From contig CAJXDP010000016.1 in the NCBI GenBank assembly GCA_913052445.1, positions 1 through 35,278 of the forward strand: 35,278 bases of DNA, read 5' to 3'. Both the position numbers and the translations under genes were made by a program. Origin of the DNA: an uncultured Formosa sp. (GTDB lineage: Bacteria; Bacteroidota; Bacteroidia; Flavobacteriales; Flavobacteriaceae). Shown one piece after another: positions 27,926 to 32,502 of this stretch (position 1 is the first letter of the stretch; each line of letters starts with the position of its first letter). The notes beneath the pieces were generated by a model. The model was not told the DNA's origin and did no database searches. It was given only the letters and a program-made list of their open reading frames with translations.

Positions 27926-27970
27926 GTTTTAATAAAAGTATTCTATAACTTTTTTTAAACTACTGACTCT

Positions 27971-28024: not shown

Positions 28025-28061
28025 TATTTAATGTGTAAATATTCTTAAATTTGTATTAAAC

Positions 28062-28069
28062 TACTTTTG
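28062..28069 (+). promoter_or_regulatory. Possible promoter -7 box for the polysaccharide locus
   Basis: TACTTTTG matches TAnnTTTG exactly and lies 31 nt before the antiterminator start codon. A second match, TAAATTTG, is at 28046-28053. No clear TTG lies 19-22 bp upstream of either, so an activator might be needed. Confidence 0.4.
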
Positions 28070-28100: not shown

Positions 28101-28637
28101 ATGAGCCTTATATTACCTAAACCAGTTCGACTAAGTCCGCTTAATTATAGAAAAAAAAAAAAGACCGCTCATTGGTATGTTTTGTATGTAAAGTCTAATC
28201 TTGAAACTAGTATTCAAGACCAAATCAATAAACTTGGTTTAGACATTAAGGCTTATAGTCCAACACATGTGATAATAAAACAATGGAAGGACCGAAAAAA
28301 GAAAGTCATCTCCGCACTTTTACCAAAAATAGTATTTGTAAAAACAGAAGAAAAACTCCGGGAAGAAGTTTTTCAAATCCAAGGTGCCGTTCGCTATTTG
28401 TTCGAACAAAAAAAACCAGCTATTGTTAGAGAGTCAGAAATAGAACAACTAAAATGCGTTTCAGAGAATATAGGACTTATTAGTCATGAGGTCACATCTG
28501 TGGTAAAAGGAGATGAAATAGACTTAAGTCCCTATGGATTTAAAGGATTAAAAGGAATTGTTGACAAAGTTTCCAAAGAAGTATGTTGGGTAAACATAAA
28601 TACATTGAATTTTGCACTAAAGATTAAGCTTAAATAG
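28101..28637 (+). CDS. NusG-like transcription antiterminator (UpxY/RfaH type)
   Basis: A 178-residue specialised NusG paralog. A basic N-terminal extension (RKKKKT, residues 17-22) precedes the NGN domain, which begins HWYVLYVKSNLE (about residues 24-35) and includes LLPKIVFVKTEE (about 73-84). The C-terminal part (GDEIDLSPYGFKGLKGIV, about 138-155) is a KOW-like domain. Such proteins stand first in capsule or exopolysaccharide operons of Bacteroidota and help RNA polymerase read through these long operons. The sugar-transferase gene starts 9 nt after its stop. A run of 12 A (28151-28162) inside codons 17-21 is a possible slippage site that would break the frame. Confidence 0.88.
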   Translation: MSLILPKPVRLSPLNYRKKKKTAHWYVLYVKSNLETSIQDQINKLGLDIKAYSPTHVIIKQWKDRKKKVISALLPKIVFVKTEEKLREEVFQIQGAVRYLFEQKKPAIVRESEIEQLKCVSENIGLISHEVTSVVKGDEIDLSPYGFKGLKGIVDKVSKEVCWVNINTLNFALKIKLK

Positions 28638-28646
28638 CCGTATAAG

Positions 28647-29738
28647 ATGGAAACTATTAATTCATTTTTACTAGAAAATATCTTGTTCACTGTAGGAGCT
28701 GTACTTATTAGTTCGTTTTTGATTGCATCAAGTATTTTTCCAACAATCATATACCTAAGCTATGTAAAAAATCTTACTAAAAAGCCCAATGGTCGTAGCT
28801 CACACAGTTCATCAATTCCAACACTAGGAGGGCTAGCAATTTTCATAGGATTGATCATTACAAGTGCATTAGTCGCAGTTTTAATAGGAAATAAAAGTGA
28901 AATATCTGAAATTCTATCGGTTTTCACTACTTCTATAATTTTACTATTTGTGGGGATTAGAGATGACCTGATGGAGATTTCATCAAGAAATAAATTCCTT
29001 ACCCAACTTGTTGCTTCGGTATTACTAATCACATTAACAGGGCATTATATTACAGATTTTGATGGGATTCTAGGATTACATAAAATCAGCAGCGAGTTCT
29101 CTTTCCCATTTACGATATTTGTCTATATTCTTATTATAAATGCTTACAACCTAATTGATGGCATTGATGGTTTAGCTACAGGGATCAGCATTATTTTATT
29201 TGGATTTTTTGGAACTTATTTGATATCCAATAACATGTATACCGGCGGCTTACTATCCATTGCTTCTATTGGAGGACTCATAGCTTTTTTAAGATATAAT
29301 ATCTCTAAAACTCGAAAAGTATTTATGGGTGATACCGGTTCAATGATAATTGGACATATCTTAGCCTACCAATCAGTACTTCTAATTGCTTGTAGCAGTA
29401 GTGAACAATTGGAAAATCAAGTTATCAACATGCCCATAGTAGTTTTAGCCTTACTATCCTATCCTCTGTATGACACTTTAAGAGTTTTTATTATACGGAT
29501 CAGAGAAAAAAAGAGTCCATTTAGTGCCGATAGAAATCATATACATCACAAGTTCATTGATTTAGGTCTTACTCATATTCAAGCTAGTTCGTTCATTATT
29601 TTATATACCATAATCATTGGGTTTATAGCGATTATCATAGAACAGTTAGACATCAACATTCAACTGATTATTATAATAATAACTTCAATAAGTTTATTAT
29701 CTATCCCAAGTTTGATCAAAACAAATAATAGAAATTAA
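28647..29738 (+). CDS. WecA/MraY-family polyprenyl-phosphate sugar-1-phosphate transferase (copy 1)
   Basis: A 363-residue membrane protein of about ten or eleven helices. It transfers a HexNAc-1-phosphate from a UDP-sugar to undecaprenyl phosphate, starting a surface glycan. Motifs in order: substrate loop KKPNGRSSHSS (about residues 46-56), the catalytic aspartates IRDDLMEIS, NAYNLIDGIDGLA (about 168-180), FMGDTGS and the HxHH box ADRNHIHHK. The HIHH box places it in the WecA/TagO branch rather than MraY. It is translationally close (9-nt gap) to the antiterminator gene and should be its first target. The exact sugar is not visible. Confidence 0.9.
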   Translation: METINSFLLENILFTVGAVLISSFLIASSIFPTIIYLSYVKNLTKKPNGRSSHSSSIPTLGGLAIFIGLIITSALVAVLIGNKSEISEILSVFTTSIILLFVGIRDDLMEISSRNKFLTQLVASVLLITLTGHYITDFDGILGLHKISSEFSFPFTIFVYILIINAYNLIDGIDGLATGISIILFGFFGTYLISNNMYTGGLLSIASIGGLIAFLRYNISKTRKVFMGDTGSMIIGHILAYQSVLLIACSSSEQLENQVINMPIVVLALLSYPLYDTLRVFIIRIREKKSPFSADRNHIHHKFIDLGLTHIQASSFIILYTIIIGFIAIIIEQLDINIQLIIIIITSISLLSIPSLIKTNNRN

Positions 29739-29942: not shown

Positions 29943-31019
29943 TTATAGTAAAGAAAGTTGTTTTTTGAAGCGAATTCTGATAATAGAGGTCAATATAATC
30001 ATACTGAAAATTAGAACAAAATACGAACAAACAACAAACAGTGTGGTTGTTCTAAAGGCTAATAAACTAAAAACAAAAATAAATAAAATTAATGCAGTAG
30101 TAATAACTAAAGATGTTACTAGATGTGACTTTGTGAATAACAGAACCAAGTGGTGTAAATGAAATTTATCCGCAGAAAAAGGACTCCTTCCAAGGTAAAG
30201 TCTGTACAGATAAATACTTGCTGAATCGATTATAGGAATAATAAAGATAACAAGAGGAGCAATCGGCAGGATCATGCGGTCAAAATCAAGGGTAAATGAA
30301 ACAGGTGCATTGGTATTAACCACAAGCATCGTCATTACAAATAAAATGTAACCAATAAACATAGAACCAGAGTCGCCCATAAATACTTTCCTCTTGGTGC
30401 TAAAGTTAAAAGGCAAATAAGATGCAACGATTCCAATCATTAAGAAACAAGCTCCAAAATATCCCTTGTAGTCTAAAATCCAGAAAACAACTGAAAAAGC
30501 AGCAAAAGAAATAATAGCAATAAAACCTGACAGGCCGTCAATGCCATCGATTAAATTAAAAGCGTTAATCATGAAAACTCCAATAAAAGTGGTAAAAGCT
30601 AAACCTACAAATGGATTCAAAATTTCAATTCCTAAAAAACCATGTAAATTCTGAACAGCCAACTGGTTGTGTACAACTATAAAAAATATCGCAATTATTT
30701 GGTAGAATAATTTTTTATAAGCCCTCATTATTTTCAAATCATCCCAGAAGCCAACTACACAAATTATAAAACCGCCGGCAATTAAGCCTGTCAAATCCTT
30801 TTTATCAATAAATGGTTCTAAAATTATAAGACCTAAAGTAAATAAAAACAAAAAAACAACTCCACAAGAATTTGGAATAGGTTTTTTATGAAAGTCTCTT
30901 TTCTTAGTTTTTCCAAATATTCGGTAGGTTATAATGAATCTTCTAAATGAGCTAATCATGACCATTCCAATCATAAATATGATTAAAATAAAAGCTAAAA
31001 TAAAATTAAAACTATACAA
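29943..31019 (-). CDS. WecA/MraY-family polyprenyl-phosphate sugar-1-phosphate transferase (copy 2)
   Basis: A 358-residue membrane protein with all catalytic features of the WecA branch. These are FHKKPIPNSCG (about residues 43-53), WDDLKIM with the Asp pair (about 92-98), NAFNLIDGIDGLSG (about 151-164), FMGDSGS (about 213-219) and ADKFHLHHL. Despite the same family it differs widely from the plus-strand copy outside these motifs, so the two are old paralogs rather than a recent duplication. It is on the opposite strand and so outside the antiterminator operon. The frame opens with TTG (31017-31019) with a stop codon four codons upstream; the next ATG would cut into the first helix. Confidence 0.88.
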   Translation of the reverse strand: MYSFNFILAFILIIFMIGMVMISSFRRFIITYRIFGKTKKRDFHKKPIPNSCGVVFLFLFTLGLIILEPFIDKKDLTGLIAGGFIICVVGFWDDLKIMRAYKKLFYQIIAIFFIVVHNQLAVQNLHGFLGIEILNPFVGLAFTTFIGVFMINAFNLIDGIDGLSGFIAIISFAAFSVVFWILDYKGYFGACFLMIGIVASYLPFNFSTKRKVFMGDSGSMFIGYILFVMTMLVVNTNAPVSFTLDFDRMILPIAPLVIFIIPIIDSASIYLYRLYLGRSPFSADKFHLHHLVLLFTKSHLVTSLVITTALILFIFVFSLLAFRTTTLFVVCSYFVLIFSMIILTSIIRIRFKKQLSLL

Positions 31020-31086: not shown

Positions 31087-31094
31087 TATATTTG
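31087..31094 (+). promoter_or_regulatory. -7-like box only 4 nt from the Kelch-like gene start
   Basis: TATATTTG exactly matches TAnnTTTG and ends 4 nt before the ATG at 31099. If used, transcription would begin at or just past the start codon, giving a leaderless message. No TTG is seen at the proper distance, so it may be a chance match. Confidence 0.3.
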
Positions 31095-31098
31095 TCTC

Positions 31099-32502
31099 AT
31101 GAATATAAGACTATTATTTGTTTTAATTTTTAGCTATATAAATGCTTCATTTAGTCAAAATAGTGAATTTGACTTTTATAGAGGTGATTCAGATAATGTA
31201 AGTGTGTTAGGCAACAATGAGAACTATTTTTTTGTAAGAAAAAATAAATATATTTTAAAAAAAGATTACAAAAATTCTCTGTTAGAAACTTTTTTATTTG
31301 AAAACAATATTCCATCCAAAGAAATTCAGCTGGTAATTCAAAATGACATTCCAGTTATAGTTAGCCGAGGCGGTGGAATGGTTTGGAAAGTTACAAACGA
31401 TACTTTTAGAAGAGTTGACAACTCATTTGACCACAAAATGACAAACCAATCGACTGTGTTTGTTCGTAATGATACCATAATGAAGTTTGGTGGCTATGGG
31501 TATTGGAGTAGTCGAAATTTCTTTACTTATTATTCTGAAACAACAAAAGAATGGGAGTTCTACCAAATTAACCAGCTAAGCGCACTCCCACCTGGAGTAA
31601 GTGACGTAAGTTCAACATATTCCAATAATAATTTTTATTTTTCAGGTGGTCTGAAGTCAGACCCGAAGTTTCCATTATCCAAAACTATCAACGACAATGT
31701 TTGGCGCTTTGATTTTACAAACAGGACTTGGGTAGATTTGGGAACAGCAAAATTTAATTCCAATACGCGGCGGGGTCAATCGTTAGAAATAGGCGACGGA
31801 CGTATGCTATTTGACACTAATGATCCCCTAGTCAAGCTTGTTCAGGATGACCTTAAAATCAATTCCAAGTTCACAGATTTTAGTAAAGTAGACTATAATC
31901 AATTTGGGGCTTTTATTTACGACTATCAAAAAAATGAACTTAGCACAGTCGAACAGATTGGTCCTTATTTGGAAATTACAAAAGCTTTTGTAGCAAATGA
32001 CAGCATTTACAACTACAGAAAAAATAAACTAATTGGAATAAGTCTAAATTCATTGCTTACAAAAGCTGTAAGACAAGGAGCGATGTACGTAGACACTAAA
32101 ATACTATTTGATAATTTAACTCGTTTTACTGGAGTAGCACTGATTTTGCTGTTTATAGCTCTGCTATTTATTTATTCAAAAAATCGGAAACGACCTAGAC
32201 TTTCAGAATCAGGATTCAGATTCAATAGAGTGCATTATCCTTTGAGTGAAAACGAATTATTGATTCTCAACTTAATAATATATAACAAACGAGTGGAGTC
32301 TAAAACGATATTAAAAAAAATTTACGATACAGATTTGAGTATTGCTCAAAATAATAGAATAAAAAATGAAGCAGTAGAGTCCCTTAATAAAAAAGTGTCT
32401 AACATTATGGGAGTGAAAAACTTTATTAATTCTAAAAAGAGTTTAAAAGATCAAAGAATGTTGATTTATTATTCAAATTTTAGAAAGGATTTTGTAATTT
32501 AA
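31099..32502 (+). CDS. Unrecognised Kelch-like periplasmic domain + one membrane helix + possible cytoplasmic winged helix
   Basis: I do not recognise this 467-residue protein as a named family. It has a signal peptide (about residues 1-19, ASFSQ) and a beta-rich extracytoplasmic part. Kelch-like blades show GG pairs and paired aromatic residues: MKFGGYGYWSSRNFFTYY (about 128-145) and FYFSGGLKSD...NVWRFDFTNRTWVDLG (about 179-215). One membrane helix spans about 342-360 (FTGVALILLFIALLFIYS), followed by a basic KNRKRPR stop. The last 90 residues are cytoplasmic and look like helix-helix-helix-wing: LSENELLILNLII, ESKTILKKI, NRIKNEAVESLNKKVSNIMG, then MLIYYSN. The architecture suggests a one-component membrane regulator in the polysaccharide locus; this is inference. 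Confidence 0.6.
   Translation: MNIRLLFVLIFSYINASFSQNSEFDFYRGDSDNVSVLGNNENYFFVRKNKYILKKDYKNSLLETFLFENNIPSKEIQLVIQNDIPVIVSRGGGMVWKVTNDTFRRVDNSFDHKMTNQSTVFVRNDTIMKFGGYGYWSSRNFFTYYSETTKEWEFYQINQLSALPPGVSDVSSTYSNNNFYFSGGLKSDPKFPLSKTINDNVWRFDFTNRTWVDLGTAKFNSNTRRGQSLEIGDGRMLFDTNDPLVKLVQDDLKINSKFTDFSKVDYNQFGAFIYDYQKNELSTVEQIGPYLEITKAFVANDSIYNYRKNKLIGISLNSLLTKAVRQGAMYVDTKILFDNLTRFTGVALILLFIALLFIYSKNRKRPRLSESGFRFNRVHYPLSENELLILNLIIYNKRVESKTILKKIYDTDLSIAQNNRIKNEAVESLNKKVSNIMGVKNFINSKKSLKDQRMLIYYSNFRKDFVI

Follow-up and report, generated by a model that had tools for sequence, protein, structure and literature searches.

The gene at 31099–32502 of the window, as we call the whole 35,278-nucleotide stretch of uncultured Formosa sp. 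DNA analysed here, very probably encodes a Kelch protein that senses the periplasm and acts on genes across the membrane through a winged-helix tail. That it is a transmembrane DNA-binding regulator of one target or another we regard as highly likely. For the narrower reading, a bitopic one-component transducer regulating the adjacent polysaccharide genes, we estimate a probability of about 0.6, and the proposal that its ligand is a sugar is less certain than this control of adjacent genes. The sequence-only reading had pictured a regulator made of a Kelch sensor and a DNA-binding tail, and fold searches with the propeller and with the tail both favour that picture.

The open reading frame is intact on the forward strand, with an ATG at 31099, a stop at 32502 and 467 residues (label P0001 in our searches), and occurs once in the 1.7-Mb genome assembly, which is ∼81% complete. 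Used as a single-sequence query, the protein returned no solved relative and none in genome_contigs, so that an alignment profile was needed; an NCBIfam scan gave no match, and a Kelch similarity at residues 112–238 (PF24681, E 6.2e-10) fell under the Pfam cut-off. Using 41 sequences (the window protein and fetched loci) as input, AlphaFold produced a full-length model with a mean pLDDT of 85.7. The signal peptide, Kelch domain and single membrane helix that had been read from the letters alone are present in this model and in a hydropathy scan, and so is the cytoplasmic tail, which at 104 residues is slightly longer than the 90 first claimed. The scan found one C-terminal membrane segment (340–358), with a net charge of +4 on its inner side and 0 on its outer side. 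A single C-terminal membrane segment was likewise found by hydropathy in 39 of the 41 members, 38 of these 39 being more positive inside. A Pfam scan and the model show no receiver domain within the 467 residues. The features are collected in Table 1.

Table 1. Predicted features of the Kelch gene, its protein and the adjoining genes in the window
Feature	Position	Strand	Residues	Basis and remarks
UpxY-like NusG paralogue	28101..28637	+		PF02357 E 1.9e-14; NF033644 E 7.7e-27, 94.3 bits against a cut-off of 100; linked in clade
WecA-like polyisoprenyl-phosphate sugar-1-phosphate transferase	28647..29738	+		PF00953
Second PF00953 transferase (WecA/MraY-type)	29943..31019	-		divergent from Kelch gene, 79 bp between
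TATATTTG box, putative Bacteroidota-type -7 promoter	31087..31094	+		ends 4 nt before ATG of Kelch gene
Putative signal peptide	31099..31155	+	∼1-19	model helix 3-19, disordered stretch 19-30 next; hydrophobic start, no lipobox cysteine
Six-bladed Kelch beta-propeller, predicted periplasmic	31201..32082	+	35-328	model strands; Kelch matches by profile and fold
Single membrane helix, predicted	32095..32187	+	333-363 (hydrophobic core 340-358)	model and hydropathy; positive-inside flank SKNRKRPR
OmpR/ToxR-like winged-helix tail, predicted cytoplasmic	32188..32499	+	364-467	model, fold, profile, conservation
Recognition helix within tail, predicted			415-437	
Wing within tail, predicted			444-458	conserved DxR at 451-453

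The family that joins a Kelch domain to this tail occurs Bacteroidota-wide. Of 60 genomes tallied in a search with the window protein, 11 gave matches, apparently including the window's own. The alignment profile reached 44 loci in GTDB species genomes and matched 35 genomes out of 397 belonging to the same family, a few of the weakest of these matches extending over just a part of it. With the tail alone as a profile, more members were found in the order, class and phylum, and the named records with family members include Flavobacteriaceae, Crocinitomicaceae, Cyclobacteriaceae, Saprospiraceae and Flavihumibacter. Of 78 Kelch proteins collected, 73 are free of truncation at a contig end; 71 of them keep the same tail, in line with the initial reading, and the other two are short frames (333 and 268 residues). 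Because the full architecture was found again in dozens of genomes, its arising by chance is excluded. The same tail (E 1.2e-12) also follows seven hydrophobic segments in one protein that has no Kelch domain (genome G674, L157 6708–7838), in which Pfam names no domain. Such a domain swap would be expected of an exchangeable output module, and this one case suggests that the tail may be of that kind. The seven-segment protein could itself represent a second undescribed receptor type. Two further members depart from the usual layout: a 738-residue protein (L189 3956–6172) carries ∼280 extra residues ahead of the propeller, in which Pfam finds no match, and a 1220-residue open reading frame (L190 4824–8486) consists of two Kelch-plus-tail units in tandem.

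The case for glycan targets comes from the gene neighbourhood. The antiterminator and the two sugar transferases that had been noted beside the gene are indeed there, as a UpxY-like NusG and two PF00953 genes, and further neighbours in the window include cytidylyltransferase-like, GDP-fucose-synthase-like and GDP-mannose dehydratase genes. The divergent arrangement of transferase and Kelch gene is conserved in the window's clade (SH-aLRT 100), where 9 of 10 rows adjoin a UpxY-like NusG and/or a WecA-like transferase; in the tenth, L037, the gene starts 407 bases from the contig end. In two paralogous clades of four rows each, found in capsule-export loci, the Kelch genes flank a transferase; a NusG is near, and usually Wza- and Wzz-like genes are as well. 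At four loci (L020 7506–11353, L102 7835–11666, L105 7571–11376 and L113 7599–11409), a WecA-like transferase stands between divergently oriented Kelch paralogues from two different clades. Beyond the housekeeping NusG and MraY, the 23 genomes searched usually hold none to two extra copies of these genes each. As we read the gene positions, the Kelch gene lies within ∼10 kb of an extra (non-MraY) PF00953 transferase in 10 of 16 genomes, where ∼0.02 per genome would be expected, and within the same distance of an extra NusG in 8 of 13. Assuming that each genome has a 2% chance, a rough binomial calculation yields 7e-14 for the transferase and 3e-11 for NusG; both values are overstated because of kinship among the genomes, although about six genera are represented.

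This linkage does not extend to the whole family. The expectation that the gene would always stand next to glycan genes holds almost universally in the window's clade and the two paralogous clades and fails in many distant members, so a family-wide glycan linkage was rejected. Of the 72 tree rows, 43 have no scored glycan gene within four genes of the Kelch gene, and on the tree, a quick one whose deep forks are uncertain, the linkage was gained or lost in at least 10 changes. The other contexts are diverse: a TonB receptor with a GFO/IDH/MocA oxidoreductase and an SSF symporter in some, and MFS, amine oxidase, WYL or CotH genes in others. These rows speak for an alternative in which the protein is still a transmembrane one-component regulator, yet answers to varied periplasmic cues and controls genes other than the adjacent glycan genes, the linkage in the window's clade reflecting a shared genomic neighbourhood. 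We consider this unlikely, though it deserves attention, since the WecA-like and UpxY-like genes are strongly linked in several separate clades, one of the arrangements being a transferase with a Kelch paralogue on both sides.

We then consider the tail. Modelled alone, it reached a pLDDT of 95.3 and showed the order strand-strand-strand-helix-helix-helix-strand-strand, in which the last two strands form the wing. Foldseek placed MarR, SarX and MecI types at the top with E-values near 0.01 (best 7.5e-3), modest values that are usual for small winged helices. VIA-align, applied as a re-examination of Foldseek's candidates, gave as best solved matches CosR on DNA (Z 10.9), BaeR (10.6), ToxR on toxT DNA (10.3), CadC (10.2) and SaeR (10.2), with the ToxR–DNA and CadC alignments covering 92–94 residues. 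MarR types thus rank first by Foldseek and OmpR types first by VIA-align, and both lists point to a DNA-binding winged helix; the model and these matches rule out a tail of some other fold. Pfam assigned no significant family to single tails. Independently of the structure comparisons, a sequence profile of the tail matched PDB sequences of AdcR (E 1.6e-4), HP1043 (2.4e-4) and DrrD (0.014); in the HP1043 alignment, the basic helix of the family falls on the third helix. Conservation falls on the predicted recognition helix and wing: K or R occupies position 420 in 36 of 41 members, 422 in 35 and 447 in 36, and in the DxR of the wing D451 is present in 41 of 41 and R453 in 40 of 41. Model, fold matches, profile and conserved residues agree with the ToxR/OmpR-type effector originally suggested, and we infer that the predicted winged helix would bind DNA.

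Winged helices may also bind proteins or RNA. The tail could accordingly serve protein–protein contact, and the protein, instead of regulating transcription, could act in polysaccharide synthesis or export as a membrane scaffold or assembly factor, an idea to which the Wza- and Wzz-like neighbours in some loci lend colour, as does the presence, further down the match list, of winged helices without a regulator's DNA function such as ScpAB. We think this improbable: the best matches to the tail are DNA-binding regulators, several of them solved on DNA, the conservation is basic and sits on recognition helix and wing, and the tail is also found on a seven-helix membrane protein and in members away from any glycan locus.

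The predicted propeller has six four-stranded blades, and the fold search proposed for the sensor part returned Kelch structures, with LZTR1 at Z 17.1 and the bacterial YjhT/NanM (2uvk) at Z 15.2. Pfam Kelch models match family members, although the window protein itself falls under their cut-offs. NanM/YjhT resembles the sensor as a bacterial Kelch propeller; it differs in being a soluble enzyme that lacks the membrane helix and effector predicted here. A reading of the Kelch domain as a sugar-modifying enzyme or carrier of this type in the periplasm, with a tail that serves only to autoregulate expression, is very improbable despite the YjhT match and a weak match to the Pfam NANM model in 6 of 41 members, since all Kelch domains have the same fold, eukaryotic binding propellers outscore YjhT and family members conserve the fusion of this domain with a membrane helix and a DNA-binding tail.

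With a sensor and a predicted DNA-binding effector in one membrane-spanning polypeptide, the modelled protein fits the general kind of membrane-integrated one-component regulators. Like ToxR and CadC it would be bitopic, with a periplasmic sensor, a single membrane helix and a cytoplasmic OmpR-type winged helix, and without a phospho-acceptor. However, the DNA-binding domain of ToxR-family proteins is N-terminal and their periplasmic sensor C-terminal (PMC5936718), and in the window protein this order is reversed, the Kelch sensor being N-terminal behind a signal peptide, which places it outside that family. The response regulators of the OmpR/PhoB type (BaeR, SaeR, DrrD, CosR) share the effector fold by structure and profile, whereas the window protein is membrane-anchored and has neither a receiver domain nor a phospho-acceptor aspartate, and so does not belong with them. 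A closer parallel in domain order is SusR of Bacteroides, also from Bacteroidota, a maltose-responsive membrane regulator of starch utilisation that binds maltose in the periplasm through its sugar-binding sensor and activates glycan genes with a C-terminal cytoplasmic DNA-binding domain (PMC3878776). This likeness is one of architecture, as taken from the published description. According to the paper, which makes no mention of Kelch, the SusR DNA-binding domain does not significantly resemble any other known factor and contains only a putative helix-turn-helix (PMC3878776). SusR also controls polysaccharide utilisation, whereas the role proposed for the window protein is in synthesis. In the open-licence literature we found no published Kelch one-component regulator in Bacteroidetes or Flavobacteriaceae, which is weak evidence of novelty.

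For regulation of the adjacent polysaccharide genes, we propose the following sequence of events. The Kelch propeller would be exported to the periplasm, as the signal peptide and charge asymmetry indicate, and would bind a ligand there, most likely a saccharide or an envelope component tied to polysaccharide assembly. By analogy with CadC, the signal would cross the membrane by way of the single helix, probably as a result of dimerisation or a change in orientation, and the C-terminal winged helix predicted at the inner face would bind promoter DNA. The conserved neighbourhood points to the adjacent antiterminator and transferase genes of the surface-polysaccharide locus as likely targets in the window, and the Kelch gene's own divergent promoter is perhaps another. 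Since glycan genes are missing from the surroundings of many distant members, different clades may respond to different signals, or the signal may not be a sugar at all. Tentatively, we suggest that the family may form an undescribed Bacteroidota-wide class of one-component receptors whose Kelch propeller, lying in the periplasm, detects a glycan that is exported or membrane-bound and signals straight to DNA, so that the initiation of surface polysaccharides would be controlled at the level of the product, in concert with a UpxY-type antiterminator. Membrane-integrated one-component regulators make up 3% of bacterial one-component systems (PMC5936718). To these, a conserved Bacteroidota family that senses through a Kelch domain would contribute a new input module, and in marine Flavobacteriaceae it would provide a testable candidate for the switching of surface-polysaccharide loci. 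Such switching has otherwise been studied mainly in gut Bacteroides, via UpxY antiterminators.

Finally, we looked at the DNA upstream of the genes. The TATATTTG box ahead of the Kelch gene, which we take to be a -7 box from the consensus of Bacteroidota promoters, recurs with the same spacing to the ATG in L030, L032 and L038, and with one mismatch in L029; the 4-nt gap is also the commonest spacing for other genes of these loci (13 of 732). As the box stands four bases ahead of the ATG and is common to relatives, the Kelch transcript is probably leaderless. When the intergenic regions, which are short and AT-rich, were searched for repeats and palindromes, no operator was recognised, the matches being AT-rich and chance-like. 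A 29-nt imperfect direct repeat (79%; 27936–27964 and 28037–28065), with copies 101 nt apart, lies upstream of the UpxY-like gene; it may be an operator, or a chance product of the AT-rich sequence.
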